Source: Tubulanus polymorphus (taxonomy: Eukaryota; Nemertea; Palaeonemertea; Tubulaniformes; Tubulanidae). Taken from it: 64,000 bases of DNA. Below, piece by piece: positions 1,486-63,680 of this stretch (position 1 is its first letter; every line of letters begins with the position of its first letter). Both the position numbers and the translations under genes were made by a program. Below the pieces are notes generated by a model, which saw nothing but the letters and a program-made list of their open reading frames with translations, was not told the DNA's origin and made no database searches. The stretch is taken from the NCBI RefSeq assembly GCF_964204645.1, contig NC_134032.1, positions 11,402,275 through 11,466,274 on the forward strand, read 5' to 3'.

Positions 1486-2210
1486 CTAGAAATCAAATGT
1501 GTTTGGGTCGACGTTATGAATGCGCTTCATGTGCTGTTTGCAGTTATATTTCAGATTAAAACGTTGCTCGCACATCGGACATTTAATCGGTTTTTCGCCG
1601 GTGTGAATTCGCTCGTGTATCGCCAAATTTACGCTAGTTTTCATCCTTTTACCGCAAAACTGACATTTAAACGGTCGTTCATCTAAATGAACTAGATTCA
1701 TGTGCTGTTTACAATGTGATTTCAGCGCGAAACATTTCTCACAAGTCGGGCATTTAAATGGTCGTTCATCGGTATGAACCAGTTTCATGTGCCGTTTACG
1801 GTTCGATTTCTGAGTAAAACATTGCTCGCACATTAAACATTTAAACGGTTTATCCCCGGTGTGAATTCGCTCGTGTTGTTTACATAATGCGGGAATATTA
1901 AACCATTTATCACAAAACTGACATTTGTATTTTTTACTATTGCCAGCCTTGAATTTCTCAGATGATACATGGCTATTCGGGCAAACATTGTGAACCTGCT
2001 TCATGTGCCGGTCACAGCTCGACTTCACCATGAAACATTGCTCGCACGTCAGACATTTAAACGGTTTTTTGCCGGTACTACCAGGCTCAATGTTACCCCC
2101 TTTACATCCTGTTGCTATTTTCAATCGACCTTGAGCATTGACCTTACCAGCGGGAAGACGACTCAGTTCAACAGACGGCAGTAATTCATTCGGCACGTCG
2201 TATCCGACAC
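1486..2210 (-). CDS. unit A zinc-finger cassette A3, terminal exon, six C2H2 fingers
   Basis: Terminal coding exon of a poly-C2H2 protein, expected to be nuclear and to bind DNA. The exon starts at 2,210 just after an acceptor (CTTTGTAG) and runs to a stop at 1,486. It has no initiator ATG at its start and opens with the shared leader (GVGYDVPNELLPSVELSR). Six fingers follow: one CX2CX12HX4H, a spacer (NVCPNSHVSSEKFKAG), then five more joined by TGDKP, TDERP, LDERP and TGEKP linkers. It ends NVDPNTFDF. The phase-1 start joins in frame to the donor at 10,033; with exons 1 and 2 of unit A the protein would be 688 residues. All zinc ligands are present. No target can be inferred. Confidence 0.88.
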
Positions 2211-3257
2211 CTACAAAGAAACATTAGAATCAAATTTAAGCCTCATCTTCACAATTCCGCCTCTGAATCCATTGAGAATTGAACAACTGGTGGAATAATA
2301 AAGGGTAACAGAGATTGAAGACAAATATCATCCTGAAGAAACTAATTCGTTCCTTACGAAGTTATGATGGACTGTGGCAATCGAGGATTCCACTTGTGGC
2401 AAGCGAAGATCCACCTGTTCGCTAGTGCGCATTCAGACAATTCCCAAATTTCTCCTCAGATTCAATTAAAATCTATCCATAATTTCTCATATTCTATGAA
2501 TGGTGATTAATAAAATTCACGCTATATATCAACCTAAAGATCATCTGAGTTTATCAAGAGTAATGATTTGCCAAATTTCTGATGAGGGATGCTAAATATC
2601 TAGATAAAAGTTCATTCATCGAAAATGAACTAGACTTTGACGGGGTTGTCGCACTGATACACACGTCATCCTGGTGGGATGTCTAGCTGGTGGCACAGGA
2701 GTCCTCATTAACGGTTTTCTTTCTGATTAAAATATTGCTCAGAAATCGACTAGTGAATCGGTTTTTCATATGCACGAACTATCAAAAGACTAACACGAAA
2801 AACTTGGTTTTCAATCTTATTTATTTGGATAAATCTTACATCTTATACTCGAAGGAATAACATATGAACAGATCGCTGTTGCATTAGTCATCTTCGTAGA
2901 AAAGTGATATAATGTCAGTTTTCTTTCCAGCTAAAATGTTCCCCATTCCAACAAACTAACGAATTCGCGACAAAAATCTGTGCGAAAAATACATTTAAAA
3001 AAATTAAATTTTGGAAGCATTTTTTTCATCAAAAGGAAGGACTAAGAGTAAAAATAAAGACGATGTTTGTCCAAACTGATTGCAAAAGAAGCCCGACACT
3101 AGCACGAGTGCGTAGCTAATGACGTCATCTACGAGATTATGTCATTATTAGCCAATCAGAAATCCCGTTTTATATTTGCCAGGCTTTCTCCGTTATCCGT
3201 GAAATTGTGCAATCATAATAATAATCAGCGCGACTATACAACAGGCAATCTGGATTG
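2211..3257. other. duplicated intronic flank, no gene
   Basis: The first 450 bases upstream of this exon (on the minus strand) recur upstream of almost every other finger cassette, including a conserved CTAAT branch-point-like motif 14-18 bases before the acceptor. Around 2,600-2,640 there is a short inverted repeat, AGTTCATT...AATGAACT, that recurs beside other cassettes. No coding signal is seen. Confidence 0.6.
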
Positions 3258-3390
3258 GTGCCGCATGTACTTGCGCACCCGGTCTAGTGTGGCAGAGCTT
3301 CGTGCCGTGGCTGAGTTATAAGCGATGCCATCAGGTTCGAATCCCTGCTGATGGTGTTGAGTATGATCTGCAAGGTATAAAAACCTTTAC
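3258..3390 (+). repeat. tRNA-derived SINE copy 2
   Basis: Same head as copy 1 (GTGGCTGAGTTATAAG, then GGTTCGAATCC) and the same tail. It lies 55 bases past the stop of the next finger exon. The tail reads AGTAAA on the minus strand instead of AATAAA. Confidence 0.7.
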
Positions 3391-3444
3391 TGAAAAATCA
3401 AATCTGATGATAACAATGATGATCCGTTTTAAGTAACATCAAAT

Positions 3445-4340
3445 TTAGAAATCAAACGTGTTTGGGTCGACGTCATGAATGCGTTTCATGTGCTGTTTAC
3501 GGTTATATTTCACATTAAAACACTCCTCGCACATCGGACATTTAAACGGTTTTTCGCCGGTGTGAATTCGCTCGTGTACCTCCAAATTTACCCTAGTTTT
3601 CATCCTTTTACCGCAAAACTGACATTTAAACGGTCGTTCATCTGAATGAACCAGTTTCACGTGCTGTTTACACTGTGATTTCAGCGCGAAACATTTCCCA
3701 CACACCTCACATTTAAACGGTTTTTCATCGGTATGAACCAGTTTCATGTGCACTTTACAGTTAGATTTCCACGTAAAACACGACTCGCACATTGGACATT
3801 TGAACGGTTTTTCGCCGGTGTGAATTCGCTCGTGTCGTTTAATGTCTGAGAGAAAAGTAAACCCTTGATCGCAAAAACGGCATTTAAACGGTCGTTCATC
3901 GGTATGAACCAGTCTCATGTGCGTTTTACGGTTTGATTTCTGAGTAAAACGTTGCTCGCACATCTGACATTTAAACGGTTTATCACCGGTGTGAATTCGC
4001 TCGTGTGTTTTACGTGATGCGGGAAAACTAAACCACTTATCGCAAAACCGACATTTGTACTTTTTACTATAGCGAGCCTTGACCTTCTCAGATGAAACAT
4101 GGCTATTCGGGCAAACATTATGAACCTGTTTCATGTGCCGGTCACAGCTTGATTTTACCATAAAACGTTTCTGACATGTCGGACATTTGAATGGTTTTTT
4201 GCAGTTACTTCCAGGGTCAATGTTACCCCCTTTACATCTTGTTGCTATTTTCAATCGACCTTGAGCATCAAACTTTCCAGCGGGCAGACGACTCAGTTCA
4301 ACAGACGGCAGTAATTCATATGGCACGACGTATCCGACAC
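3445..4340 (-). CDS. unit A zinc-finger cassette A2, terminal exon, eight C2H2 fingers
   Basis: Second intact cassette of unit A. The acceptor ends at 4,341 (TTTGTAG) and the exon begins GTGTCGGATACG. The leader is standard (PYELLPSVELSRLP). Eight fingers follow, all with complete CCHH ligands: finger 1, spacer, then seven fingers with TGEKP alternating with TDERP or TDEKP. The C-terminus VDPNTFDF is the same as in the 1,486 exon, so these two cassettes are recent sisters. Spliced to unit A exons 1 and 2 it gives 745 residues in frame. Expected role: sequence-specific DNA binding in the nucleus, inferred from the fold only. Confidence 0.88.
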
Positions 4341-6494: not shown

Positions 6495-7336
6495 TTATCG
6501 CAAACATTTGAACGGTCGTTCATCGGAATGAACTTGTCTAATGTGCACTGTACAGGATCCTTTCCGACTAAAGCGTTGCCCGCACGTCGGACATTTAAAC
6601 GGTTTTTCACCGGTGTGAATTTGCTCGTGTTGCTTCAATTGGGTGCGATTTTTTATCCGTTTAGTGCAAAATTGACATCTAAACGGTCTTTCATTGGAGT
6701 GAACTTCTTTTATGTGCGTTTGACATGTTGATTTCTGCGTAAAACGTTGCTCGCGCGTCGGACATTTAAACGGTTTTTCGCCGGTGTGAATTCGCTCGTG
6801 TACCTTCAAACCGTAGCGAGTTTTCATCCATTTATAGCAAAACTGACATTTAAATGGTCTTTCATCGGTATGAACAAGTTTCATGTGCATGTTACAGTTC
6901 GATTTCCGAGTGAAAGCTTTCTTGCATATCGGACATTTGAACGGTTTTTTGCCGGAGTGAGTTCGCTCGTGTATATTCAAATAGTTGCGAGTTTTTAACC
7001 GTTTATCGCAAAACCGACATTTAAACAGTCTTTCATCCGTATGAACACGTTTAAAATGCACCTCACGGCTTCTTTTGAGCCTAAAACATTTCTCACATGT
7101 CGGACATTTAAACGGTTTTTCACTGGTGTGTGTTCGCTCACGCCGTGTACAATCTGCAGTCATCAACGCGTTAGACTTAGATCTATAGGCGGCTTCACTA
7201 GAACTAACAGGTTCGATGTTAACCTTTTCACATCCTGTCGCTATTCTAAATCGACCTTGAGCATTGTCCTTTCCAATTGGCAGACGACTCAGTTCAACCG
7301 ACGGCAATAACTTGCGCGGCACGTCGTATCCGACAC
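6495..7336 (-). CDS. unit A zinc-finger cassette A1, seven fingers, truncated by a frameshift
   Basis: The acceptor-proximal cassette of unit A, exon start 7,336. The leader differs most from the family (PRKLLPSVELSRLPIGKD) and lacks the usual first finger and spacer. Seven fingers follow. In the fifth the second zinc Cys is Arg (CPTREQRF), which should disable that finger. An apparent 5-base deletion near 6,503 then shifts the frame, so the exon stops after PFKCLR; a homologous finger (CDKWMKTSYHLKRHERVH) continues in another frame down to about 6,380. With exons 1 and 2 it would give 727 residues. It is the most divergent of the larger cassettes, and probably old. Confidence 0.75.
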
Positions 7337-7484
7337 CTACAAAGAGTTGTAAGAGAATCCAGATTTTAATTTATGGCGCATCAACATTTCAAACATCGTA
7401 TTTCGAGGTTGAATGAACAAAGCTGAAACAACGAAATAGATTCATGATCGGAGAATAAAATCAATAGATGCTACTCGTGAAAAC

Positions 7485-8397
7485 CGTCTGCTAGTTTGTG
7501 AAATCAGTCTGCTAGTTAGTGAAATCAGTCTGCTAGCTTGTGAAATCAGTCTGCTAGTTTATGAAATCAATCTGCTAGTTTATGAAATCAGTCTGCTAGT
7601 TTATGAAATCAGTCTGCTGGTTTGTGAAATCAGCTTGCTAGTTTATGAAATCAGTCTGCTAGTTTGTGAAATCAGTCTGCTAGTTTGTGAAATCAGTCAG
7701 CTAGTTTGTGAAATCAGTCTGCTAGTTTGTGGAATCAGTCTGCTAGTTTGTGAAATCAGTCCGCTAGATTGTGAAATCAGTCTGCTAGTTTATGAAATCA
7801 ATCTGCTAGTTTATGAAATCAGTCTGCTAGTTTATGAAATCAGTCTGCTGGTTTGTGAAATCAGTCTGCTAGTTTGTGAAATCAGTCTGCTAGTTTGTGA
7901 AATCAGTCTGCTAGCTTGTGAAATCAGTCTGCTAGTTTATGAAATCAATCTGCTAGTTTATGAAATCAGTCTGCTAGTTTATGAAATCAGTCTGCTGGTT
8001 TGTGAAATCAGCTTGCTAGTTTATGAAATCAGTCTGCTAGTTTGTGAAATCAGTCTGCTAGTTTGTGAAATCAGTCAGCTAGTTTGTGAAATCAGTCTGC
8101 TAGTTTGTGGAATCAGTCTGCTAGTTTGTGAAATCAGTCTGCTAGTTTATGGAATCAGTCTGCTAGTTTATGGAATCAGCCTGCTAGTTTGTGAAATCAG
8201 TCTGCTAGTTCATGGAATCAGCCTGCTAGTTTATGGAATCAGCCTGCTAGTTTGTGAAATCAGCCTGCTAGTTTGTGAAATCAGTCCGCTAGATTGTGAA
8301 ATCAGTCTACTAGTTTATGGAATCAGTCTGCTAGTTTATGGAATCAGCCTGCTAGATTGTGAAATCAGTCTGCTAGTTTGTGAATCAGTCCGCTAGT
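7485..8397. repeat. 21-bp minisatellite, about 43 copies
   Basis: Unit close to GTGAAATCAGTCTGCTAGTTT, repeated head to tail without gaps. Variants (TTATG, CAATC, CAGCC) recur in order: the variant block at 7,533 recurs at 7,911 (378 = 18 units), and a sub-block at 7,561 recurs at 7,792 (231 = 11 units), so there is higher-order amplification. The length is a multiple of three, so the plus strand stays open for 253 codons, but that frame is a by-product. It lies in the intron just upstream of cassette A1. Confidence 0.95.
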
Positions 8398-8399
8398 TT

Positions 8400-10032: not shown

Positions 10033-11226
10033 CTGACTGATCAAAATCTCCACTTGTTCCCGGTTGTGGATCGTGCTGTTGTTGTTGCACGATCTGTTGA
10101 GTTGAATAATTTTCATCATCGTCGCTTCCTGACGATATTTCAACCGGTTCTATTTTCATCAGTACATTCTTAACATCACCGTTACCTTGGTGATGTGATT
10201 GTTCGAATGGAAGCGTATTGATATCAGCGGTATTCGTATCAGTTAATTGTTCACTGTATTTGAGTTCGACTTTTTCAGGATTGGTGGCGCCACTAAAAAG
10301 TTCTAATTGTTCAAATGACGGAGAAGAACCTACGATCGATTCTAATTGTTCTAACTTGTAATCGCAGCTAGAGACCGCCGGGGGCGGGGGTATCGATAAT
10401 CCACTTTCACTCGACTGTTCAACGTTAGTCTCATTTCTAATTGTTGATGCTTTGTCAGCGTTTGAATCATCAGGAATCGTAGAATCATCCGATTCCTCCT
10501 CGGCATTTTTAATTCTTTTTAAAGTTGATTCGATTTCGGCGCTCGATAATATTTCACAACTGTTTGAATTAAGAACTGAGAAATTGACGGTTTCTGCCGA
10601 TGCTGAGCTGACCGGAGCTGTTGCCACCAATGACACAACATTCTCAGATTCATTCAATTGTTGCTGCGATGCAATATCAGTTACCGATGGTTTCAAGCCG
10701 ATTCCTGATTGTAACGATATTATCGGTGATTCACCACCAGGTGGAGCTGGTTTAACGGGTGTTGTTTGCGTAATAGGCTGGGTTGGTGTTTTCTGTTGTT
10801 GAAACTGAATATCAAGATTATGAACACTATTAGCCGGTGATATTTGACGGACTCCGGATTGGTTTCCCATATTCATAGGAGGAATGTTGATAGCCGGTGA
10901 AACGTGTTGAGGAGGTAAACCTCGTCCTCTTCCGCGACCTCCTCGATTGGGCGTCATTCTCTGTTGAGCTGGTAACAGACCGATCGGTTGCTGCCCGACA
11001 GCCGTCATTGTTTGTGATTGAACTCGTTGCTGTGGTAACGTCCCCTGTATAGCTGCACCTCCTCTCCGACGTTTCACAGCTTTTAAAACGTTCTGAGCGA
11101 CAGTTTTTGTTCTGCTTTGAACTTCAAATCGTCTTTGTTTTCCGGTTTTTGATTGATTCGTACCGATGTACATAACACCTCCATCTCCGGACATTTGATC
11201 TAGGCCAATTTGTCCTCTTTTCTGAT
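10033..11226 (-). CDS. unit A exon 2, low-complexity Q-rich constant exon
   Basis: Middle coding exon, 1,194 bases (398 codons), phase 1 at both ends. Acceptor TGTGTTCAG at 11,227 and donor CAG/GTAGGTG at 10,033. In order: a basic segment (KRRFEVQSRTKTVAQNVLKA), Q/P-rich DNA with an RGG-like run (RGGRGRGRGLPP), a conserved PPGGESPIISLQSGIGLKP, one copy of the ~73-residue repeat (SESGLSIPPPPAVSSCD), an acidic VEISSGSDDDENY, and Q4. No catalytic domain is recognised. VEISSGSDDD resembles a SUMO-interaction motif followed by acidic residues, so recruitment of SUMO-dependent cofactors is an inference. This exon supplies the N-terminal part for unit A's finger exons. Confidence 0.85.
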
Positions 11227-11383: not shown

Positions 11384-11565
11384 CTTTAGTTTGACGTCGA
11401 GACATCCATCTAAACCAGGTATTATCATCAGCATCAATAACTAATTCATCTAACCAATCCATGTGTCGACGCAGACATTTTTTAAATGCATCCTCACGTA
11501 CGTGCACCTCGACACCTTCCAACAGCAACATTTTAACGTCACTTCTCTAACTATCTATCTTACTC
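11384..11565 (-). CDS. unit A exon 1, first coding exon (49 residues)
   Basis: The acceptor TTCTAATTTTTCAG ends at 11,566. A short leader with an in-frame stop precedes the ATG at 11,531, so that ATG is the start. It encodes MLLLEGVEVHVREDAFKK then CLRRHMDWLDELVIDADD and ends RQTK. The donor AAAG/GTTCGT at 11,384 is phase 1 and joins exon 2 to give a Asp codon. The sequence is almost unchanged in units B and C. I do not recognise the domain; it is acidic, with a Trp/Met-rich end (NTWFRWMSRR), and may be a small protein-interaction module. Confidence 0.8.
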
Positions 11566-12553: not shown

Positions 12554-12720
12554 CGATTCCGAGTTATATTCATCAATTCACAGGCTCAATTAAGCGTGAA
12601 AACGGCGTTGAAACGAGGCAGACCCTTTGATTTTCGATCTCTCAGCTGTGTTCAGCGGGCACCAGTCTTAGAAGATGGCGCCAACGTACGGTAGAGCGAA
12701 GTCGATTCAACTCAAATGTC
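12554..12720 (-). promoter_or_regulatory. unit A non-coding 5' exon and promoter-proximal region
   Basis: A block conserved upstream of exon 1 in all four units. On the minus strand it contains TACGTTGGCGCCATCTTC and then a transcribed-looking stretch ending at a donor, TCG/GTACGTAGG, exon end 12,554. The only ATG near the donor opens a short frame that meets a stop after splicing to exon 1, so the exon is untranslated. The GGCGCCATCTT element resembles the YY1-type AAGATGGCG core-promoter motif. The transcription start is not fixed. Confidence 0.65.
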
Positions 12721-15099: not shown

Positions 15100-15926
15100 T
15101 TAATTTTTTATCGCAAAATTTACACTTAACGGTTGTTCATCGTTATGAACACGTTTCATGTGCGCTTTACAGTTTCCTTTCACCGCAAAACATCGCCCAC
15201 ACTTTGAACACTTAAACGGTTTTTCGCCGGTGTGAATTCGCTCGTGTCGTTTAATGTCTGTGAGAGAAGTAAACCCTTGATCACAAAACTGACATTTAAA
15301 CGGTCGTTCATCGGTATGAACCATTTTCATGTGGTGTTTACATTTTGATTTATGCCTAAAACATCGCTCACACTTTGAACATTTAAACGGTTTTTCGCCG
15401 GTGTGAATTCGCTCATGTAGTTTCAAATTTAAACTAGTTTTCATCCTTTTATCGCAAAACTGACATTTAGATGGTCGTTCATCGGTATGAACCCGTTTCA
15501 TGTGCGTTTTAAGGTTCGATTTCTGAGTAAAACATTTCTCACACTTTGAACATTTAAACGGTTTTTCGCCGGTGTGAATTCGCTCGTGTATTTTACGTAA
15601 TGCGGGAATATTAAACCATTTATCGCAAAACTGACATTTGTACTTGACCTTGTACTTGCCAGCCTTGACCTTCTCAGATGACACATGGCTTTTCGGGCAA
15701 ACATCATGAACCTGTTTCATGTGCCCGTCACAGCTTGATTTTACCGTGAAACATTTCTTGCACGTTAGACGTTTAAACGGTCTTTTGCCGGTACTTCCAG
15801 GGCCATTGTTATCCCATTCAAATCCTGTTGCTATTTTCAATCGACCTTCAGCATCAACTTCTCCAGCTGGCAGACGACTCAGTTCAACAGACGGCAACAA
15901 TTCACGCGGCACGTCGTATCCGACAC
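15100..15926 (-). CDS. unit B zinc-finger cassette B3, truncated exon with seven finger positions
   Basis: Exon start 15,926 after the standard acceptor. The common leader (PRELLPSVELSRLPAGEVD) is followed by a first finger whose first zinc Cys has become Arg (FKRLTC), a spacer and six complete fingers. A one-base deletion near 15,129 changes the next finger (QPLSVNFAIKN in place of PFKCQFCDK) and ends the exon, leaving damaged fingers downstream. Joined to unit B exons 1 and 2 it gives 778 residues in frame, so it could still be expressed as a shortened protein. It is the acceptor most distal from unit B's constant exons. Confidence 0.75.
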
Positions 15927-17286: not shown

Positions 17287-18473
17287 TCATTGGTGATGTA
17301 CATATTTCATGTGCTTTTTACAGTTTGATGTCTGCGAAAAATGTTTCTCGCATATCGGACATTTAAACGGTTTTTCGCCGGTGTGAATTCGCTCGTGCTG
17401 CTGCAAAGTAAAGATAGTTTGCATCCGTTTGTCGCAGAACTGACATTTGAATGGTCGTTCATCGGAATGAACAGTTTTCATATGCCGTTCACAGTTCCCT
17501 TTCTGATTAAAACGTAGCCCGCACATTAAACATTCAAACGGTGTTTCACCGGTGTGAATTCGCTCGTGTTGTTTACATAATGCGGAATTATTAAACCATC
17601 TATCGCAAAAGTGACATTTGTACTTTTTACTATAGCCAGCTTTGACCTTCTCAGATGACACATGGCTATTTGAGCAAACATTATGAACTTGTTTCATATG
17701 CCGGTCACAGCTTGATTTCCACGTAAAACATCGCTCACACTTTGAACATTTTAACGGTTTTTCGCTGGTGTGAATTCGCTCGTGTTGTTTCAAATCTAAA
17801 CTAGTTATCATTCGTTTATCGCAAAACTGGCATTTAAACGGTCGTTCATTGGTATGAACCTGTTTCATGTGAATGTAACGGTTTGATGACTGCGAAAAAT
17901 GTTTCTCGCATATCGAACATTTAAACGGTTTTTCGCCAGTGTGAGTTCGCTCGTGTGTTTTACGTGATGTGGGAAAACGAAACCATTTATCGCAAAACTG
18001 GCATTTAAACGGTCGTTTAAACGGTCGTTTAACGGTATGAACCTGTTTCATGTGAAGGTTACAGCTTGATGACTGCGAAAAATGTTTCTCGCATATTGAA
18101 CATTTAAACGGTTTTTCGCCGGTGTGAATTCGCTCGTGTGTTTTACGAAATGCGGGAAAACGAAACCATTTATCGCAAAACTGACATTTGTACTTTTTAC
18201 TATGGCCAGTCTTGAATTTCTCAGATGGAACATGGCTATTCAGGCAAACATTATGAACAAGTTTCATGTGCCAGTCACAGCTTGATTTTACTTGGAAACG
18301 TTTCTCGCACGTCAGACATTTAAACGGTTTTTGGCCGGTACTTCCAGGGTCAATGTTACCCCCTTTACACCCTGTTGCTATTTTCAATCGACCTTGAGCA
18401 TCGACCATTCCAGCGGGCAGACGACTCAGTTCAACAGACGGCAGTAATTCATTCGGCACAACGTATCCGACAC
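17287..18473 (-). CDS. unit B zinc-finger cassette B2, intact exon, eleven C2H2 fingers
   Basis: Exon start 18,473 after TTTGTAG, stop at 17,287. Leader, then finger 1, spacer and ten further fingers, all with complete CCHH ligands. Two irregular linkers occur: TVKRPFKRPFK between fingers 3 and 4 (an in-frame duplication of RPFK), and a second copy of the NVCSNSHVSSEKVKAG spacer between fingers 7 and 8. The latter shows that a block including the start of one cassette was fused to the end of another. Fingers 1-7 resemble the unit C cassette; the C-terminus ends KKHMKYVHHQ. With unit B exons 1 and 2 the protein is 898 residues. This is the best candidate for a functional unit B isoform. Confidence 0.88.
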
Positions 18474-19957: not shown

Positions 19958-21187
19958 TCATTGGTGATGTACATATTTCATGTGCCTTTTACCGCTTGAT
20001 GTCCATGTAAAATGTTTCTCGCATATCGAACATTTAGACGGTTTTTCGCCGGTTTGAATTCGCTCGTGTTGTTTCAAATGGAATCTAGTTTTCATTCCTT
20101 TATCGCAAAACTGACATTTAAACGGTCGTTCATCTAAATGAACCTGTTTCATGTGTTGTTGACAGCTTGACGTCTGCGTAAAACGTTGCTCGCACATTGG
20201 ACATTTAAATCGTTTTTACACCGGTGTGAATTCGCTCGTGTTGTTTCAATTGGGAACTAGTTTTCATTCCTTTATCGCAAAACTGACATTTAAACGGTCG
20301 TTCATTGGAATGAACCCGTTTCATGTGCGCTTGACAATGTGATTTCAGCACGAAACATTTCTCACACGTCGGGCATTTAAACGGTCGCTCATCGGTATGA
20401 GAACGTTTCATGTGAATGTTACGGGTTGAAATCTGCGTAAAATGTTTCTCGCATATTGAACATTTAAACGGTTTTTCGCCTGTGTGAATTCGCTCGTGTT
20501 GTTTCAAATAGAAACTAGTTTTCATTCGTTTATCGCAAAACTGACATTTAAACGGTCGTTCATCGGTATGAACCCGTTCAATGTGCCGTTTACAGCTTGT
20601 TTTCCACAAAAAACATTTCTCACACTTTGAACATTTAAACGGTTTTTCGCCGGTGTGAATTCGTTCGTGTAGTTTCAAATGGTAACTAGTTTGCATTCCT
20701 TTATCGCAAAACTGACATTTAAACGGTCGTTTAAACGGTTGTTTAACGGTATGAACCTGTTTCATGTGAAGGTTACAGTGTGATGACTGCGAAAAATGTT
20801 TCTCGCATATTGAACATTTAAACGGGTTTTCGCCGGTGTGAATTCGCTCGTGTATTTTACGTAATGCGGGAAAACGAAACCATTTATCGCAAAACTGACA
20901 TTTGCACTTTTTACTATTGCCAGCCTTGAATTTCTCAGATGGAACATGGCTATTCAGGCAAACATTATGAACAAGTTTCATGTGCCAGTCACAGCTTGAT
21001 TTTACTGTGAAACGTTTCTCGCACGTCAGACATTTAAACGGTTTTTGGCCTGTACTTCCAGGACGAATGTTACCCCCTTTACACCCTGTTGCTATTTTCA
21101 ATCGACCTTGAGCATCGACCCTTCCAGCGGGCAGACGACTCAGTTCAACAGACGGCAGTAATTCATTCGGCACAACGTATCCGACAC
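19958..21187 (-). pseudogene. unit B zinc-finger cassette B1, frameshifted after nine fingers
   Basis: Exon start 21,187 after the standard acceptor. Leader, finger 1, spacer and eight further complete fingers are open to 20,205. There a one-base insertion in the linker turns TGEKPFKC into TGVKTI and a stop. Three more fingers ([20 protein letters not shown] onward) follow in the next frame to 19,958, ending KRHMKYVHHQ; one has lost its last His (HERIQ). Translation of the spliced product to the new stop would give 830 residues with nine fingers, so it could still work as a shortened isoform. It is the cassette closest to unit B's constant exons. Confidence 0.75.
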
Positions 21188-41128: not shown

Positions 41129-42538
41129 CTGACTGATCAAAATCTCCACTTGTTCCCGGTTGTCGATCATGTTGTTGTTGTTGTTGTACAATTGGTTGAG
41201 TTGAATAATCTTCATCATCGTCGCTTCCTGACGATATTTCAACCGGTTCTATTTTCGTAAGTTTATTTTTAACACCTTCTCCATAACCTTGGTGATGATG
41301 CGATTGTTGGAACGGAAGCGTATTGATATCAGCAGTATTCGTATCAGTTAATTGTTCACTGTATTTTAGTTCCACTTTTTCGGGATTGACGACGCCACTT
41401 AAAAGTTCAAATTGTTCAAACGACGGAGCTGAATTTACGATCGATTCTAATTGTTCTAACCCGTTATTGCAGCTGGAGACCGCCGGGGGCGGGGGTGTGG
41501 ATAATCCACTTTCACTCGGCTGTTCCACGTAAGTTTCATTTGTCGATGTCGCATCAACGTTTAATTGTTCATTGTATTTTAGTTCGATGTTTTCGCCAAC
41601 AGTGGCGCTGCTAGATATTTCTAATTGTTCGGACGTCGGAGCGGAATTTACGATCGATTCTAATCGTTCTAAGGTGTTATCGCAGCTGGAGACTGCCAGG
41701 GGCAGGGGTGTCCGTAATCCACTTTCACTCGGCAGTTCCACGTAAATTTCATTTTCATTTGCTGACGACACGTTGTCCTTTGAATTGTCAGGAATCGTAG
41801 AATCATCCGATTCCTCAGCAGCATTTTTAATACTTTCTAAAGTTGATTCGATTTCAGCGCTCGATAAAATTTCACAACCATTTGAATCTAGAACTGTGAA
41901 ATTGACGGTTTCCACCGATGCTGAGCTGACCGGAGCTGTTGCTATGGACGACACAACATTCTCAGATTCATTCAATTGTTGCTGCGATGCAACATTAGTT
42001 ACCAATGGTTTCAAGCCGATTCCTGATTGTAACGATATTATCGTTGACTCACCACCAGGTGGAGCTGGTTTAACAGGTGTTATTTGTTTAATAGGCTGGG
42101 TTGGCGTTTTCTGTTGTTGAAACTGATTAAGATTACGATCACTACCAGCCGGTGATATATGACGGACTCCAGATTGGTTTCCCATATTCATAGGAGGAAT
42201 GTCGATAGCCATTAAAACATGACGAGGAGGTAAACCTCGTCCTCTTCCTCTTCCGCGACCTCCTCGATTGAGCGTCATTCTCTGTTGAGTTGGTAACAGA
42301 CCGATTGGTTGCTGCCCGACAGCCGTCATTGTTTGTGATTGAACTCGTTGCTGCGGTAACGTCCCCTGTACAGCTGCACCTGTTCTGCTACTTTGCACAG
42401 CTTTTAAAACATTCTGAGGGACGGTTCTAGTTCTTTGAACTTCAAATCGTCTTTTTTGTCCGGTTTTTGATTGATTCGTGCCGATGTACATAACATCTCC
42501 ATCTCCGGACATTTGATTCATTTGTCCTCCCGTCTGAC
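41129..42538 (-). CDS. unit C exon 2, Q-rich constant exon
   Basis: 1,410 bases (470 codons), phase 1 to phase 1, acceptor TGTATTCAG and donor CAG/GTAGGC. Same layout as units A and B: basic KRRFEVQRTRTVPQNVLKA (one residue shorter), RGGRGRGRGRGLPP, PPGGESTIISLQSGIGLKP, two ~73-residue repeats, VEISSGSDDDEDY and Q5. Unlike unit D it keeps the Ser/Glu-rich segment (NVVSSIATAPVSSASVET) before the repeats. The first codon at the junction encodes Gly rather than Asp. Predicted to be disordered; proposed cofactor-binding region of cassette C1's protein. Confidence 0.85.
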
Positions 42539-42695: not shown

Positions 42696-42873
42696 CTTTA
42701 GTTTGGCGTCGAGACATCCATCTAAACCAGGTATTATCATCAGCATCAATAACTAATTCATCTAAGCAATCCATGTGTCGACGCAGACAACTTTTAAATG
42801 CATCCTCGCGTACGTGCACCTCGACACCTTCCAACAGCAACATTTTAACGTCAGTTCTTATACTAAACTTCAA
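42696..42873 (-). CDS. unit C exon 1, first coding exon with altered acceptor
   Basis: ATG at 42,843; MLLLEGVEVHVREDAFKS to RQTK, with Cys for Trp in HMDCLDEL. Donor AAAG/GTTTCT. The acceptor seen in unit B (CTATTTTCAG) reads CTATTTTCCG here, so the AG is lost at that site. A TTTAG 14 bases downstream, still before the ATG, could replace it without changing the protein. The exon start of 42,873 is therefore uncertain. The coding part is otherwise undamaged. Confidence 0.7.
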
Positions 42874-45469: not shown

Positions 45470-45660
45470 CGGTTACGAGTTATAGTCATCAACTCACAAG
45501 CTTAATTAAGCGTGAAAACGGCGTTGAACCGAGACAGTCCAATTCGTTTTTCCACCCTTTCTCAGTTCTGTACGGCACCAGTCTGCAGATGGCGCCAACG
45601 TACGGTAGAGCATAGTCAATTCAACTCAAATGCCCTTTATTTCAATTTCAATTTCGATAT
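45470..45660 (-). promoter_or_regulatory. unit C non-coding 5' exon and promoter-proximal region
   Basis: Same layout as unit B, with TACGTTGGCGCCATCTGCAG and the strong donor CCG/GTAAGTCGG, exon end 45,470. Nearly identical to unit B because of the recent duplication. Confidence 0.7.
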
Positions 45661-47864: not shown

Positions 47865-49037
47865 ATCAAATTTAGAAATCAAACGTGTTTGGGTCGACGT
47901 TATGAATGCGTTTCATGTGCTGTTTACGGTTATATTTCACATTAAAACATCTCGCACATCGGACATTTAAACTGTCGTTCATCGGTATGAACAAGTCAGG
48001 GCCGGCGGAAGGTATAAACTATTGGTACGGCCACCCCAAACCGTACCTAATAGGCAGAAGCGAGTAGCGCACTCTGGTTCGTCGCAATTAATAACTGCGC
48101 GGAAAATTTTGAAAAATTTACTTATGATACACATCATGGAGCATTTCAGAATGCATTTTAATAGTCAATTTTGCCGGTTCGTTTCCACCAAGCTCCAATA
48201 GCGGTGTCCCGTGCACCGAAAATATTCGAGGTCAAAATTTGCTGGTTCTTTAGCCACACATCAAAGAATTGTCATGGCCGCCATCGACATTGTGGCGATT
48301 TGTTGGGGAGATACTTGAAGGTAGTTAAAATTGGAAGGTTGCTAAACTGGATTTAGAAATCTATAGACACAAAACCGGTTTTTTAATATCGCGATGAATC
48401 AATGTACAAGACTGGGATATGCAAACTTGAAAATATCGTAAACAGGATTATCTTGAGCTGCTATATTATGGAATTACTACATGTTTATAATATCAGAAAT
48501 ACACCAATTAAAACTTGTGAAACTATGAAACACACATTTACTATCAGTCGACGAGAGATAACTGTAAATTACTCAGACTACTGAATGATACCACCAATGA
48601 CCTAAGTTATTTTCATGTGCGGTTTTAAGTTCGATTTCTGAGTAAAACGTTGCTCGCACATCGGACATTTAAACGGTTTTTCGCCGGTGTGAATTCGCTC
48701 GTGTTGTTTACGTAATGCGGGAATATTAAACCATTTATCGCAAAACTGACATTTGTAATTTTTACTATGGCCAGCATTGACCTTCTCAGATGAAACATGG
48801 CTATTCGGGCAAACTTTATGAACCTGTTTCATGTGCCAGTCACAGCTTGATTTTACTGTATAACGTTGCTCACACGTCGGACATATAAACGTATTTTGCC
48901 AGTACTTCCAGGGCCAATGTTACCCCCTTTACATCCTATTGCTGTTTTCAATCGACCTTGAGCATCGACTTATCCAGCGGACAGACGACTCAGTTCAACA
49001 GATGGTAATAATTCAAACGGCGCGTCGTATCTGACAC
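47865..49037 (-). pseudogene. unit D zinc-finger pseudo-cassette D2
   Basis: Sister of C2 without its 127-base deletion. Exon start 49,037. The leader has the same TAA. A one-base deletion after GSTGK breaks finger 1, and a TAA follows where the Cys-rich loop should be. The segment [18 protein letters not shown] to KPHMK (48,602-48,832) stays open as isolated finger frames. The 610-bp insertion and the broken last finger (47,865-47,997) are as in C2. It is dead. Confidence 0.85.
47990..48610. mobile_element. insertion inside pseudo-cassette D2
   Basis: Duplicate of the 33,207-33,821 insertion, with CAGGGCCGGCGG at its left end. Confidence 0.5.
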
Positions 49038-49549
49038 CTACAGAGTCATTAGAATCAAATTTAAGCTACATCTTCACAATTCCGCCTCTGAATCCAGTGA
49101 GAATTGAACAATTGGTGAAAAAATTTAGGGAAATAGAGATTAGAAGAAGACAAACATCATCCTTATGAAAGACTGAAGGAACTAATTCATTCCTTAAGTT
49201 ATGAATGATGGCGTTTCATGCGATTGAAATATTCCCAACGCTTCGAATGTTAAAATGGTTTTTCATTTTACATGAACTGTCAAAGACAAACACAGAGATA
49301 ATTTTGGTTTTTCAATCTTATTTATTACATAAATCTTACATCTAATACTCGCTTATTTAACGTATTATCAAATTGCAGCTCCTGAACTCCATGAAACGAC
49401 AGGCAATTATTGCACAGTGCGCACATCTTCACAGAAAAAAAGATTTTTAAATGTTTTGCAGCCTCTTATTTTGAATCCAATACTGAAATACTTAAAATAA
49501 TTCTCAAACTTTGCGGAAAAAAACTGCAGTGTTTCAGATCTATAAATTA

Positions 49550-50202: not shown

Positions 50203-52772
50203 TCATGTGCTTTTTACAGCCTGATGTCTGCGTAAAATGTTTCTCGCATATCGGACATTTAAACGGTTTTCGCCGGTGTGAATTCGCTCATGTTGTTTCA
50301 AAAGGTAATTAGTTTTCATTCGTTTATCGCAAAACTGACATTTAAACGGTCGTTCACCGGTATGAACACGTTTCATGTGAAGGTTACACTGTGATTGCAC
50401 TGCGAAACATTTCTCACACGTCGGACATTTAAACGGTTTTTCGCCAGTGTGAATTCGCTCGTGTTGTTTTAAATAGGAACTAGTTTTCATTCGTTTATCG
50501 CAAAACCGACATTTAAACGGTCGTTCATCGGAATGAACCAGTTTCATGTGCGCTTGACAACGTGATTTCAGCACGAAACATTTCTCACAAGTCGGGCATT
50601 TAAACGGTCGTTCATCGGTATGAACCCGTTTCATGTGCTGTTTACAGCTTGTTTTCCACGAAAAACATTTCTCGCACATCGGACATTTAAACAGTTTTTC
50701 ACCGGTGTGAATTCGCTCGTGTTGTTTCAAATAGGAACTAGTTTTCATTCGTTTATCGCAAAACCGACATTTAAACGGTCGTTCATCGGTATGAACCCGT
50801 TTCATGTGCTTTTTACAGCTTGTTTTCCACGTAAAACATTTCTCGCACATCGGACATTTAAACGGTTTTTCACCGGTGTGCATGTGCTCGTGTAGTTTCA
50901 AATAGAAACTAGTTTTCATTCCTTTATCGCAGAACTGACATTTAAACGGTCGTTCATCGGAATGAACCTGTTTCATGTGAACGTCACGGTGTGACGTCTG
51001 CTTAAAATGTTTCTCGCAAATCGAACATTTAAATCGTTTTTCGCCGGTGTGAATTCGCTCGTGTTGTTTCAATTGGGAACTAGTTTTCATTCCATTATCG
51101 CAAAACTGACATTTAAACGGTCGTTCATCGGTATGAACCCGTTTCATGTGCGCTTGACAATGTGATTTCAGCGCAAAACATTTCTCACACGTCGGGCATT
51201 TAAATGGTCGTTCATTGGTATGAACCAATTTCATGTGATTTTTACAGGTTGATGACTGCGAAAAATGTTTCTCGCATATTGAACATTTAAACGGTTTTTC
51301 GCCGGTGTGAATTCGCTCGTGTAGTTTCAAATGGGACCTAGTTATCATTCGTTTATCGCAAAACTGGCATTTAAACGGTCGTTCATCGGAATGAACCAGT
51401 TTCACGTGCTGTTTACAATGTGCTTTCAGCACGAAACATTTCTCACACGTCGGGCATTTAAATGGTCGTTCCTCTGTATGAACCAGTTTCATGTGAAGGT
51501 TACAGCTTGCTGACCTCGAAAAATGTTTCTCGCATATTGAACATTTAAACGGTTTTTCGCCTGTGTGAATTCGCTCGTGTAGTTTCAAATGGGACCTAGT
51601 TATCATTCGTTTATCGCAAAACTGGCATTTAAACGGTCGTTCGTCGGAATGAACCAGTTTCACGTGCTGTTTACATTGTGCTTTCAGCACGAAACATTTC
51701 TCACACGTCGGGCATTTAAATGGTCGTTCCTCTGTATGAACCAGTTTCATGTGAAGGTTACAGCTTGCTGACCTCGAAAAATGTTTCTCGCATATTGAAC
51801 ATTTAAACGGTTTTTCGCCGGTGTGAATTCGCTCGTGTCGGGTCATATCATTGTGATATTTCATTCGTTTATCGCAAAACTGGCATTTAAACGGTCGTTC
51901 ATCGGAATGAACCAGTTTCACGTGCTGTTTACAATGTGCTTTCAGCACGAAACATTTCTCACACGTCGGGCATTTAAATGGTCGTTCCTCTGTATGAACC
52001 AGTTTGATGTGAAGGTTACAGCTTGCTGACCTCGAAAAATGTTTCTCGCATATTGAACATTTAAACGGTTTTTCGCCGGTGTGAATTCGCTCGTGTCGTT
52101 TAATGTCTGAGAGAAAATTAAACCCTTGATCGCAAAACTGGCATTTAAACGGTCGTTCATCGGTATGAACCTGTTTCATGTGAATGTTACGGTTTGATGA
52201 CCTCGAAAAATGTTTCTCGCATATTGAACATTTAAACGGTTTTTCGCCGGTGTGAATTCGCTCGTGTAGTTTCAAATGGGACCTAGTTATCATTCGTTTA
52301 TCGCAAAACTGGCATTTAAACGGTCGTTCATCGGTATGAACCTGTTTCATGTGAATGTTACGGTTTGATGACCTCGAAAAATGTTTCTCGCATATTGAAC
52401 ATTTAAACGGTTTTTCGCTGGTGTGAATTCGCTCGTGTGTTTTACGTAATGTGGGAAAACGAAACCATTTATCGCAAAACTGACATTTGTACTTTTTACT
52501 ATTGCCAGCCTTGAATTTCTCAGATGAAACATGGCTATTCAGGCAAACATTATGAACAAGTTTCATGTGCCAGTCACAGCTTGATTTTACTGTGAAACGT
52601 TTCTCGCACGTCGGACATTTAAACGGTTTTTGGCCGGTACTTCCAGGGTCAATATTACCCCCTTTACATCCTGTTGCTATTTTCAATCGACCTTGAGCAT
52701 CGACCGTTCCAGCGGGCAGACGACTCAGTTCAACAGACAGCAGTAATTCATTCGGTACGACGTATCCGACAC
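50203..52772 (-). CDS. unit D zinc-finger cassette D1, 27 complete C2H2 fingers
   Basis: The longest finger exon here, start 52,772. The leader is standard apart from LLLSVELSR (Leu for Pro). Fingers 1-2 with the NVCLNSHVSSEKFKAG spacer are followed by 25 more with complete CCHH ligands. Fingers 7-9, 10-12 and 13-15 are near-identical triplets (CEKHFSRSASCN, CEKCFVLKA, QFCDKRM...), showing recent internal amplification. A 28th finger is lost: one T is missing from a T5 run in the TGEKP linker, so the exon ends RHQAVKST instead of a finger and KKHMKYVHHQ-like end. The exon alone encodes about 856 residues. Unit D's first exon is frameshifted, which casts doubt on expression. Confidence 0.88.
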
Positions 52773-55542: not shown

Positions 55543-56391
55543 CTAGAATGTCGCTGAACACGACTGATGCCCCCACATCAGGTGAAACGCCTGAGAGTAA
55601 AGTACACCTTGAGGATATCCGTATATTGAATTGTATATGAAGCCACAAAAATAGAGTAAAGTAACTCAATAGGAATAGGCGAATAGTGAACGAATATTTG
55701 ATCAGCAAAAATAGAGTTAAGTTACTCAACAGGAATAGTTTGAATAAGGAAATACTCCCTGAGTTAATGTACAGAGCATTCGTTGTTTGACAATTCTGGA
55801 AATATGCAACCATTAAGATTATTGAAGGCATATCATATAGTCACTAACATTAATGCTTGCCTGTAAACTCGATCAGGACTTATATCAGTTACCCACTTCT
55901 TCGACCTGTGACATTAAACTTTGACCTACTCTACTCAAAATTGAATCAGTTAGGCCTACTTATAGTCACATGATTAATTCATTAATTATTTTACATAGTA
56001 ATCGTAAACAATCAATGAATTAGAGCCCGGAAATGACAATTCAAAAACAACTTCTGTTGACCTTGACCTTTGACCTACAGGACCCAACATCTAATCAGTT
56101 ATCTATTTGCTCTAGGACAATCCATCAATTTAATTTCACCAAGTTATCTTAAACCATTCATGAGTTATAGCCCGAAAATGAAAATAGCAAAATAACTTCT
56201 GGTGACCTTGACCTTAGATCTACAGGACCCGATATGTAAGCAGTCACTGAAGGTCTCTAGGGTAACCCATCCATAAAATTTCAGCAAGTTATCTTAAATC
56301 GTTCATGAGTTAGAGCCCGGAAATTAAAAACAGACAGACTGACGACGAAGTGAATATAGTATGCCCGTCTCCCACAACGCGTTGTGGGGGC
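55543..56391. mobile_element. CTAG-hairpin element, unit D copy of the outer element
   Basis: 849 bp, CTAGAATGTCGCTG to the hairpin CCCACAACGCGTTGTGGG, then GGC. It has the same three ~150-bp monomers as the unit C copy without the nested insert. Confidence 0.65.
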
Positions 56392-56400
56392 ATAAAAATT

Positions 56401-57770: not shown

Positions 57771-59348
57771 CTGACTGATCAAAATCTCCACTTGTTCCCG
57801 GTTGTCGATCATGTTGTTGTTGTTGTTGTTGTTGTTGTTGTACAATTGGTTGAGTTGAATAATCTTCATCATCGTCGCTTCCAGAAGATATTTCAACCAG
57901 TTCTATTTTCGTAAGTTTATTTCTAACACCTTCTCTGCAACCTTGGTGATGATGCGATTGTTTGAATGGAAGCGTATTGATATCAGCAGTAATTGAATCA
58001 ATTAATTGTTCACGGTATTCAAGTTCCACTTTTTCGGGATTGGCGGCGCCACTAAAAAGTTCAAATTGTTCAAACAACGGAGAGGAACTTACGATCAATT
58101 CTAATTGTTCTAACGCGTTATCGCAGCTGGAGACCGCTGGGGGCGGGGCCGTCGATAATCCACTTTCACTCGGCTGTTCCACGTAAGTTTCATTTTTATT
58201 TGTCGATGTCGCGTCAACGTTTAATTGTTCACTGCATTTTAGTTCCATTTTTTCATAACTGATGGCGCCATTAAATAGTTCTAATTGTTCAAACGACGGA
58301 GATGAACCTACAATTGGTTCTAATTGTTCTAACTTATCGCAGCTAGAGACCGCCGGGGGCAGGGGTGTCGATAATCCACTTTCGCTCGACTGTTCCACGT
58401 AAGTTTCATTTTTATTTGTTGATGTAGCGTCAACGTTCAATTGTTCACTGTATTTTAGTTCGATGTTTTCGCCACCAGTGGCACTGCTAGACATTTGTAA
58501 CTGTTCAGACGGAGCTGAATTTACGATCGATTCTAATTGTTCTAAGGCGTTATCGCAGCTGGAGACTGCCGGGGGCGGGGCCGTCGATAATCCACTTTCA
58601 CTCAACTGTTCCACGCAAGTTTCATTTTTATTCGTCGATGTCGCGTCAACGTTTAATTGTTCACTGTATTTTAGTTCAATTTTTTCATAACTGGTGGCGC
58701 CACTAAATAGTTCTAATTGTTCAAACGACAGAGATGAACCTACAATTGGTTCTAATTGTTCTAACTTGATATTGCAGCTATTTAATTGTTGCTGCAATGC
58801 AACATTAGTTACCAATGGTTTCAAGCCGATTCCCGATTGTAACGATATTATCGGTGATTCACCACCAGGTGGAGCTGGTTTAACGGGTGTTGTTTGTGTA
58901 ATAGGACGCTGTGATGTCCTCTGTTGTTGAAACTGCATATTAAGATTACGAACACTATTAGCCCGTGATATTTGACGGATTCCGGATTGGTTTCCCATAT
59001 TCATAGGAGGAATGTTCATAGCCGGTGAAACGTGTTGAGGAGGTAAACCTCGTCCTCTTCCGCGACCTCCTCGATTGGGCGTCATTCTCTGTTGAGCTGG
59101 TAACAGACCGATCGGTTGCTGCCCGACAGTCGTCATTGTTTGTGATTGAACTCGTTGCTGCGGTAGCGCCCCCTGTACAGCTGCACTTCCTCTCCGACGT
59201 CTCACAGCTTTTAAAACATTCTGAGCGACAGTTTTTGTTCTACTTTGAACTTCAAATCGTCTTTTTTGTCTGGTTTTTGATTGATTCGTGCCGATGTACA
59301 TAACATCTCCATCTCCGGACATTTGATTCATTTGTCCTCCCGTCTGAC
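57771..59348 (-). CDS. unit D exon 2, expanded and rearranged constant exon
   Basis: 1,578 bases (526 codons), phase 1 to phase 1, acceptor TGTATTCAG, donor CAG/GTAGGC. Basic segment, RGGRGRGRGLPP and PPGGESPIISLQSGIGLKP are present, but the Ser/Glu-rich segment seen in A-C is missing: the frame runs directly from LQQQLN into NSCNIKLEQLE. The ~73-residue repeat has about four copies (YSEQLNVDATSTNKNETYVE and others). The acidic motif VEISSGSDDDEDY is kept and the Q run is nine, the longest of the four units. The reading frame is intact although exon 1 is not. Confidence 0.85.
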
Positions 59349-59499: not shown

Positions 59500-59679
59500 C
59501 TTTAGTTTGACGTTGAAACATCCATCTAAACCAGGTATTATCATCAGCATCAATAACTAATTCATCTAACCAATCCATGTGTCGACGCAGACAACTTTTG
59601 AATGCATCCTCGTGTACGTGCACCTTCCAGCACTTTCCAGCAGCAACATTTTAACATCAATTCTCTTAATAAACTACAA
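59500..59679 (-). pseudogene. unit D exon 1, frameshifted start
   Basis: The acceptor TATTTACAG at 59,680 and the donor AAAG/GTTCGT at 59,500 are intact. Between the ATG (59,649) and the conserved HVHEDAFKSCLRRHMDWLDE the sequence is two bases longer than in units A-C, so the ATG reads out of frame into a stop. The remainder of the exon keeps the family frame, so the loss is recent. Use of a later in-frame Met (HMDWLDE) is possible but would drop about half the module. Confidence 0.75.
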
Positions 59680-61434: not shown

Positions 61435-61479
61435 ATTTTTCAGCTTTTGCTAACTGTTTATCACATACAATTTCATATC

Positions 61480-61861: not shown

Positions 61862-61946
61862 TAGGGTTTTCTGTTACATCACAGAAAACCCTATTGAGAT
61901 TCGCATGTTTCTTATTAGGGTTTCTGCTGCCTTCGCAGAAACCCTA
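61862..61946. repeat. two adjacent short hairpins
   Basis: TAGGGTTTTCTG...CAGAAAACCCTA (61,862-61,892) and TAGGGTTTCTGC...GCAGAAACCCTA (about 61,916-61,946) are two perfect stem-loops with related stems. They are absent from the matching intron of units B and C. Confidence 0.7.
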
Positions 61947-62738
61947 TTGTATTCCTATATTCGTTAGCTCCCTTGTTGTTATTTTAGGCTATATAAACTA
62001 TAGTCTGAATACCAGTCGTTGATGTATCACATAGAGGTTAACTCCTGTTAATTGCAATGCAACAACTGATTTTAATGTCATATCATACCTTTGTACTAAA
62101 ATAAATTAATTAGTTACCTTGTTGACTTTGAAAACGTGTTTTATAATAGCATTTTTGTTGATTTAAATCGCGAATGAGTGAATTTATTGATTTGAATTGA
62201 TTGCCACAATCGGGATTTCCAATACAGACTTAATTAATAAAATGTGCAAATTCAATATGTCTCTCAAAAATTACTCTAAATGTTAATTGTTGTTGATAAA
62301 CGCATAAATTTTGGTCAATTTTAACCTTAAGAATTTGAAACAAGAATAATATCTGCATTGGCATCAATGTCAGTCCAAGTTCAAGTCCGAATCCGTAATT
62401 TACACTCCCCTGATGCACCACGAAAAACCGCCATATTTGTTATGTTGCTTCACTTCAACTATTTTTTGAGGCGACTAGTCAAAAGTTTGAGCTACTACGA
62501 TCGTCAAAAGCTACATAGGATTACCAATTTATGCACAAACAATAGTTAACTTCCGTCTGATTACAGAAAAGTCAGTTTGAGGTAAGTTGATGGTGTTTTA
62601 AGGGGTGAAATAGACGCTCTAAATCTCGTCCCTCAAAATGAGGGACGAAAATTAACCTTATATGAGCACCTTATATGAGCACTTGCCCTAGACGTTGTTT
62701 GGGAACAACGCGGGGCTAGGTACTAGACTATATAAACT
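61947..62738. other. intronic spacer
   Basis: AT-rich. It contains a hairpin, CGTCCCTCAAAATGAGGGACG (about 62,620-62,642), and a short direct repeat, TTATATGAGCACCTTATATG. No gene. Confidence 0.5.
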
Positions 62739-63186
62739 AGTGGATATTTTGCCAATGCGGCATATTTTAGTAAAAACGCTAATTTGCCAATGGCTTTATA
62801 CAATAGGATATAGTAATAAAATAAGACAATAAAATCATTATATTGGGTGTAGGGTTAGGGTTTCGATAGGGTTAGGGTCTAGAGGGTCCAGAGGGTTAGG
62901 TTTAGGGTGAGGATTAGGGTCTGTTTTTATCCCTAGGGATAGGGTTAGGTAAAGGTGAGGCTATATGTGTAGTGAAAATTACATGTGGTTTTGAGTGAGC
63001 CTGGTGGTCTAGTGGGAATATGTTACGCTAGTAATCTGCTGGTCCGGGTTCGAATCCTCTGTTCTCCACACTTTCCTTGAATTTTCGCACCTCTGTACGC
63101 ATGCGCGGCGTCAATTAGCCAATCAAAACCCACCACTGGCAAAATAGCGTTAACAGGAATAATACCGCATTGGCAAAATATCTACT
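62739..63186. mobile_element. 448-bp MITE carrying a tRNA-like sequence, copy 2
   Basis: The ends AGTGGATATTTTGCCAATGC and GCATTGGCAAAATATCTACT are inverted. The interior has TTAGGG-like runs and a tRNA-like stretch (62,997-63,064: GGTGGTCTAGTGG and GGGTTCGAATCC). It is in the same intron relative to exon 1 as copy 1 in unit A. Confidence 0.7.
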
Positions 63187-63492
63187 GCCTAAAAACTATA
63201 GACATTGGATTAACGGATTATCGTTTTTACGATTACCTACTACAACTCTGGGTTAAGTGCAGATCCGCACCTCTCGTGATTGACACAATCTGCTGAATGA
63301 CAGAATCCAGGCTAAAATCTTTCTAGTGAAGATATCTTAAATTAACCAATGGCAATGTACTGAATTGCTGAATTTTGAATCTGAAACATCCAATCCAATT
63401 GACCAATTAATGTAATTGGAATTGAATTTGCAATGCCGATATCGTAGATCGTTAAGTCTCCTAACGGGAGAATATCAGTAATACCGACGTAC

Positions 63493-63680
63493 CTGGTACC
63501 AATTACGAGTTATATTCATCAATTCAAAAGCTTAATTAAGCATGAAAACGGCGTTGAAACGTGGCAGCCTCATTCGATTTTCGCTTTCTCAATTGTGCAC
63601 AGCACCAGTCTTTGTAGATGGCGCCAACGTACGGTAGAGCACAGTCCATTCAAGTCAAATGTCCTTTATTCAATTTTGAT
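63493..63680 (-). promoter_or_regulatory. unit D non-coding 5' exon and promoter-proximal region
   Basis: Same block as in units A-C: TACGTTGGCGCCATCTAC and, at its end, the donor CAG/GTACGTCGG, exon end 63,493. The promoter-proximal motif and donor are intact although the coding exon 1 of this unit is frameshifted. Confidence 0.65.

Follow-up and report, generated by a model that had tools for sequence, protein, structure and literature searches.

Alternative zinc-finger terminal exons behind shared constant exons: a probable lola-like plan in a tandemly repeated locus

The question raised by this locus is how its zinc-finger exons are used, whether each belongs to a gene of its own or several serve as alternative ends of one common N-terminus. 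The DNA analysed is a window of 64,000 nucleotides (C8:11402275-11466274, in an animal genome of 267.8 Mb in 77 contigs), which makes up about one quarter of a cluster of approximately 260 kb on the same contig (C8:11.39-11.653 Mb); the array continues past the window on both sides. To our knowledge, the main examples of loci that provide a single constant N-terminus with many DNA-binding ends are lola and mod(mdg4). The original prediction proposed such a build for the window, with constant 5′ exons followed by alternative terminal exons encoding C2H2 fingers. Judged from splice signals, reading phase and constraint on the exons, it is quite likely that each unit is one gene, in which phase-matched alternative terminal finger exons stand behind a shared constant module and are joined to it by splicing.

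Four units (A to D) are present in the window, all on the minus strand, and each follows the order that had been proposed, from the 5′ exon through exon 1 and exon 2 to the finger exons. The 5′ exon is non-coding and comes with a promoter-like block, exon 1 is coding, exon 2 is rich in glutamine and serine, and at least one finger exon is intact. Units A and B carry three large finger exons each behind a single module, as claimed, and units C and D one each. In the predicted protein, a linker of about 400-530 residues would join a 49-residue motif to a finger array. The last bases of exon 2 (window positions 10,033, 26,350, 41,129 and 57,771) are directly followed by GTAGG, and the first bases of the terminal exons (2,210, 4,340, 7,336, 15,926, 18,473, 21,187, 36,488 and 52,772) are directly preceded by CTTTGTAG; the four donors and eight acceptors had been predicted at exactly these bases. 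The junction between exon 1 and exon 2 is in phase 1 in the window, as is that between exon 2 and every finger exon, where exon 2 stops one base into a codon and the finger exon supplies the remaining two bases of a glycine codon. Joins are in frame within units (8 of 8) and for every donor-acceptor pair of the window (32 of 32).

The tandem repetition of the locus had been correctly recognised but underestimated. The cluster holds 15 copies of exon 1, 17 exon-2 3′ ends (one without a visible exon-2 5′ part) and 102 open reading frames (ORFs) with at least two fingers, on the minus strand up to 11.492 Mb and on the plus strand from 11.496 Mb. All 17 exon-2 donors read G/GTAGG in phase 1 and are hence interchangeable in phase. 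Acceptors of the finger ORFs were ranked over 264 kb by a simple custom score, a score of at least 0.5 being taken as high confidence. The best acceptor is in phase 1 for 89 of 100 ORFs, in phase 0 for 6 and in phase 2 for 5, and two more ORFs have no candidate AG; at the high-confidence score the count is 86 in phase 1 versus 6 others. As the copies cannot count as independent observations, these numbers are given without a p-value. The leaders of the 86 high-confidence terminal exons fall into 27 groups without detectable similarity between groups, and phase 1 is kept across all of them. Upstream of 46 of the 86 acceptors there is a branch-point-like CT[ACG]A[CT]; the corresponding figures are 494 of 5000 for random places and 544 of 4300 for shuffles, and paralogy inflates the excess. 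At the other end of the units, a similarity search yielded eight aligned blocks, all of which contain the non-coding 5′ exon and its GT donor; they belong to 8 of the 15 exon-1 copies, including the four of the window. No methionine precedes the first finger in five of the eight window terminal exons and in 31 of the 86 in the cluster.

When finger exons are assigned to the nearest upstream module on the same strand, the modules in order receive 3, 3, 1, 1, 1, 9, 33, 2, 16, 0, 3, 2, 0, 0, 1, 0 and 11 terminal exons; the counts of 9, 33, 16 and 11 are those of units E, F, H and O. Finger exons in the cluster lie up to 38 kb from the donor. Exactly two C2H2 fingers are encoded by 51 of the 86 exons. 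The arrays in the window show repeat periods that include 87, 171 and 258 nt, equal to one, two and three fingers, and the long ones look like internal amplifications of a two-finger pair. A window leader gave at least 139 matches in the genome, all on C8 at 11.40-11.65 Mb (150 of 364 candidates scored), and 23 of 24 exon-2 matches lie inside the cluster, the remaining one being 24 residues on C12. A tblastn search over the 264 kb (E <0.05) listed no additional exon 1 or exon 2.

The constant exons and the tested terminal exons are under purifying selection. The ratio of non-synonymous to synonymous change (pN/pS) is 0.29 for exon 1 (14 copies) and 0.41 for exon 2 (8 copies). Reciprocal-best pairs of terminal exons have ratios below 1 in 20 of 20 cases, with a range of 0.10-0.76; they cover 40 of the 86 exons and include one pair in the window. 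Among the constrained pairs are exons distant from their module, for example 11534522 and 11535286/11536104, which indicates that alternative exons, some of them far from the module, are maintained.

The exon-1 motif is not confined to the cluster. Of its 33 matches in the genome, 15 are in the cluster and 18 outside, on C1, C2, C3, C4, C7, C8 and C11. A profile was made from 18 sequences, namely one cluster copy and 17 from outside (two of the 18 outside copies share one motif sequence), with the consensus V.E..LK.CL..HLDLLDEIV..ADE.TW.RW...R, in which the two tryptophans are invariant and an aspartate and an arginine nearly so. Several outside copies have no methionine ahead of the motif in the open frame, so at those loci another coding exon may precede it. 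Two motif-identical copies lie inverted and 2 kb apart on C7 (17708871, minus strand, and 17711049, plus strand). Four of the 18 outside loci were traced for 9-10 kb downstream, two of them on C8 at 10.8 and 16.0 Mb. In all four, the exon after the motif contains a psiKxEP site and is itself followed by at least one two-finger C2H2 terminal exon; one locus has two such exons, and in another the second one is truncated where the examined piece ends. All six GGTA[AG] donor candidates in the exon-2 frames are in phase 1, as are five of the six best acceptors, and for the sixth acceptor the second-best candidate is in phase 1. Exon-1 motif, phase-1 junctions, psiKxEP linker and two-finger terminal exon, the marks of the family, are thus found both in the cluster and in four of four traced loci outside it. 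As far as genomic sequence can tell, these loci form a family that is spread over the genome and follows a lola-like plan without BTB, and one of them has exploded by tandem duplication. Because the traced outside loci show the same two-finger plan, the two-finger terminal exon is probably the older state and the cluster an amplification at three levels, those of the unit, the terminal exon and the finger pair.

The original prediction further held that the N-terminal module is not BTB, KRAB, ZAD or SCAN, and both Pfam scans and a genome search for BTB agree. Exon 1 and the scanned exon-2 copies gave no Pfam match over the cut-off, BTB included. KRAB, SCAN and ZAD were not found by Pfam in exon 2 of units A, B and D, in the joined exons 1 and 2 of unit F, in exon 1 or in the 18 motif sequences, for which no family reached E <0.01. 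The 57 matches listed in a genome search with PF00651 include none in the cluster, and the sole one on this contig is at C8:722,646. A profile search of the PDB with the 18-sequence exon-1 profile returned nothing better than E 1. A similarity of a single exon-1 sequence to the circular tendon repeat protein 7rdr (residues 14-33, E 1.8e-4) was not recovered by this profile and is attributed to chance. The AlphaFold model of exon 1 (three window copies) has two helices with a mean predicted local distance difference test score of 68.7, too weak for a fold search.

Comparison with known systems shows in what respects this locus is similar and in what respects it is not. PMC11426971 gives 20 isoforms for lola, 17 of them with C2H2 fingers, and in its title terms the TTK-type BTB domain Arthropoda-specific. 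Common N-terminal exons with many alternative terminal C2H2 exons are found in lola as in this cluster. However, lola has a TTK-type BTB domain where the present locus has a 49-residue motif with two invariant tryptophans, and here the finger pairs are joined by HTGEKPF-type linkers and the whole locus is repeated about 15 times. That the locus is lola itself can be ruled out, as there is no BTB in the cluster by PF00651 and a lola-type BTB query gave a best genome match of only 30% identity (E 8.9e-11), with no match above 35%. The KRAB, ZAD and SCAN clusters share the tandem expansion of finger arrays and the variable contact residues, but have one array per gene instead of many terminal arrays per constant module. 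Dscam-type clusters likewise combine a constant part with one exon from a large duplicated array; there the exons are internal and encode receptor parts, whereas here they are terminal and encode DNA-binding ends. Several phase-compatible terminal exons behind one constant donor, the genomic part of the lola and mod(mdg4) plan, are found here, and to judge from its exons the locus works like these two while being a member of neither, since no BTB was found in it and, in the two window exons scanned, no FLYWCH. Among the papers listed from the open-licence literature, matched by words and not by sequences, no such locus was recognised outside arthropods.

Four other explanations can be considered. 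According to the first, which the original prediction had raised as a possible defence or silencing role, the locus is a genome-defence repertoire that supplies new DNA-binding specificities against transposons, similar to KRAB zinc-finger genes. In 92 close finger pairs from the window, which share fingers, helix positions -1, 2, 3 and 6 have a pN/pS of 6.4 relative to their own synonymous sites and of 2.8 relative to all synonymous sites, as compared with 1.1 for other positions and about 0 for zinc and core positions. Such rapid change at DNA contacts would suit a defence role, and so would recent tandem growth, to which the 97.5% identity of units B and C over 5.7 kb points. This near-identity stems from a recent duplication or, conceivably, from an error of assembly, although B and C do differ in their finger exons. 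However, helix position -1 taken by itself shows no increase (1.07), and values of 2.33 and 1.99 relative to all synonymous sites are reached at two non-contact positions. When each finger is used once, the contact ratio drops to 1.47 for the 21 window pairs and to 0.67 for the 59 cluster pairs, with the other positions lower still at 0.91 and 0.38, and 234 and 38, respectively, of the 1365 four-position sets score as high as the contact set. The DNA-contact positions as a set do change faster than other variable positions, modestly so in independent pairs, and diversifying selection on them is plausible but not strongly shown. A defence repertoire is accordingly a reading that we keep in mind but do not favour.

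The second explanation concerns how the exons are joined. PMC12692577 describes mod(mdg4) as wholly trans-spliced, with alternative 3′ exons transcribed from independent promoters, and together with PMC11426971 gives it constant exons and at least 30 alternative 3′ exons. The present locus resembles it in having constant exons and a large set of alternative 3′ exons. It differs in the ends, which are C2H2 here and mostly FLYWCH in mod(mdg4), and in the N-terminus, which is BTB there. In the two of the eight window terminal exons that were scanned with Pfam, C2H2 families and no FLYWCH were found; the 86 exons were chosen by C2H2 pattern, so exons without C2H2 would be missed. By analogy with this precedent, the terminal exons could come from their own internal promoters and be trans-joined to the constant exons, perhaps across units. 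Finger exons up to 38 kb from a donor, 17 donors that are interchangeable in phase, and modules and finger exons on both strands would be compatible with such a scheme. On the other hand, a 5′ exon belonging to the unit itself can be recognised in 8 of the 15, which would suffice for cis splicing, and we consider trans-joining from internal promoters unlikely.

How intact the units are is best seen from their parts, given here in window positions on the minus strand with finger counts by C2H2 pattern. Unit A comprises the promoter-like block and non-coding 5′ exon (12554-12696, donor GTACGT), exon 1 with the 49-residue motif (11384-11565, ATG 11,531), exon 2 with the psiKxEP site MKIEP (10033-11226, phase-1 donor) and terminal exons of 6, 8 and 6 fingers (6495-7336, 3445-4340 and 1486-2210). 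In its intron between exon 2 and the first finger exon lies a 21-nt minisatellite of 44 copies (7477-8399), one plus-strand frame of which is open for 318 codons. Unit B is built alike, with block and 5′ exon at 30673-30813 (donor GTAAGT), exon 1 with the 49-residue motif at 27850-28027 (ATG 27,997), exon 2 with MKIEP at 26350-27711 (phase-1 donor) and terminal exons of 9, 11 and 6 fingers (20205-21187, 17287-18473 and 15100-15926).

The picture of four clean units holds for the plan but not for the state of units C and D. Unit C has its block and 5′ exon at 45470-45610 (donor GTAAGT), exon 1 at 42696-42873 (ATG 42,843, donor GTTTCT) with CG in place of AG at the homologous acceptor position, exon 2 at 41129-42538 (phase-1 donor), a terminal exon of 12 fingers at 35260-36488, and the relic leader of a second terminal exon with an internal stop at 33937-34146. 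In unit D, similarity and alignment place the conserved promoter-like block (63,639-63,616) and a non-coding 5′ exon ending at 63,493 with donor GTACGT within 63493-63639. In the 15-copy alignment of exon 1, the copy of unit D (59500-59679) carries two extra nucleotides downstream of its first ATG (59,649); this insertion is without counterpart in the 14 other copies and puts the ATG out of frame, and the next in-frame methionine is within the motif. Exon 2, a linker rich in glutamine and serine that appears disordered by eye, follows at 57771-59348 (phase-1 donor), then a terminal exon of 27 fingers (50203-52772) and a relic second terminal finger exon with an internal stop (48602-49061). The linker of unit D is lengthened by a 216-nt in-frame tandem repeat (58,002-58,764). 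Tandem repeats of 154 and 145 nt lie between the exons of units C and D (38328-38933 and 39354-39956; 40540-40819 and 55997-56329). The stretch at about 62860-63110 on the minus strand comprises a tRNA-like box, SINE (short interspersed element)-like by eye, and after it degenerate CCCTAA-type repeats. The box is reported by neither ARAGORN nor Rfam, and an Rfam scan of the window gave no match at gathering score.

Several observations weigh against the view of each unit as one gene with alternative endings. Besides the lesions in or at exon 1 of C and D, a strict psiKxEP site, present in 12 of the 15 cluster modules examined, is missing in three, units C and D among them. For 7 of the 15 units the similarity search turned up no 5′ exon, and high-confidence terminal exons are absent from modules I, L, M and N. 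A methionine is present before the first finger in 55 of 86 leaders, and AATAAA or ATTAAA after the stops is not enriched (36 of 86 versus 873 of 2000 background stretches). The lesions, the relic exons and the modules without terminal exons might suggest that the cluster consists mostly of decaying duplicates, with function limited to unit F and the dispersed paralogues. Yet the terminal exons of C and D retain long open frames of 12 and 27 fingers and as a pair have a pN/pS of 0.65, and zinc and core positions are almost invariant among the close window pairs; widespread decay is thus quite improbable. Still less credible is an ordinary cluster of separate zinc-finger genes in which duplication has merely created the appearance of sharing and each module uses just its closest finger exon, since the single intact terminal exons of C and D and the relic exons would fit it but the many terminal exons of units E, F, H and O, the constrained pairs that include module-distant exons and the phase 1 kept across 27 leader groups do not. 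The lola- or mod(mdg4)-type build put forward in the original prediction is supported by phase, by the conservation of the acceptors and of the constant exons (5′ exon, exon 1 and exon 2), by the purifying selection seen in the alternative exons tested and by the four paralogous loci outside, which share the plan.

The surroundings of the cluster were named by eye, except for one G-protein-coupled receptor (GPCR)-like ORF identified by Pfam. On the left are a mucin-like ORF of Thr-rich repeats, a single open frame of 3,814 codons (C8:11378886-11390330), and three copies of the GPCR-like ORF (C8:11392365-11402219), two nearly identical, one of these truncated, and a third more diverged. Interleaved with these are incomplete copies of a two-finger terminal exon found at 11535286 as well, so that cluster and neighbour gene seem to have duplicated jointly. 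On the right is a gene like poly(A)-binding protein with RNA-recognition motifs. Within the cluster, an inverted duplication surrounds 11.494 Mb (C8:11475647-11536466), where several terminal exons of the minus arm mirror those of unit F on the plus arm; for example, 11487697 and 11502012 are 98% identical.

With each unit taken as one gene with alternative terminal exons, a unit would have its own promoter, a non-coding 5′ exon, the 49-residue exon 1, the long linker exon 2 and a single phase-1 donor, behind which stand one or several alternative terminal exons, each with a leader, at least two C2H2 fingers and a stop. A transcript would join exon 2 to one terminal exon, the choice being made by cis or trans splicing, and a common N-terminal effector or assembly part would in this way be placed on many DNA-binding ends. 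The products are likely nuclear DNA-binding regulators, and probably repressors acting through SUMO, as a psiKxEP site and a basic block occur in the majority of linkers; the former would serve SUMO modification and the latter nuclear import. The motif with two tryptophans may, as a guess, mediate assembly as BTB does. In this genome-wide family each terminal exon probably encoded two fingers at first, and the cluster has grown by duplication of whole units, of single terminal exons and of two-finger modules within exons.

As to the kind of animal, CCTAACC repeats seen by eye had first pointed to an insect or a hymenopteran, but this reading was dropped in view of the low identity to lola-type BTB (30% at best), which speaks against an arthropod of the lola kind, and of the Hox genes. 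A run of ten Hox homeodomains, with Antp-type ones up to 95% identical, was found on C6; its flanks resemble Lox5, Lox4 and Lox2, which suggests a spiralian. A COI peptide gave no match. Neither did Chitin_bind_4 or innexin, but control genomes yielded no matches with these either, so the two results are no evidence of absence; the innexin result sits somewhat uneasily with a spiralian. It is tempting, if doubtful, to suppose that a spiralian lineage built its own lola/mod(mdg4)-type system independently of arthropods on an unrelated N-terminal motif, and that in one species a single locus, with 15-17 modules and about 90 phase-interchangeable endings within a quarter megabase, became a repertoire generator whose contacts track genomic parasites, possibly with trans-splicing between units. 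The locus looks like a much enlarged counterpart of the two fly genes that was built independently. If the splicing plan is true, many DNA-binding proteins would be obtained from few promoters, and the tandem locus would be a natural experiment on the growth of a repertoire at three nested levels, those of unit, terminal exon and finger pair. A plan of this kind in a probable spiralian, built on an unrelated N-terminal motif and spread through the genome as a gene family, would show that it arose more than once.

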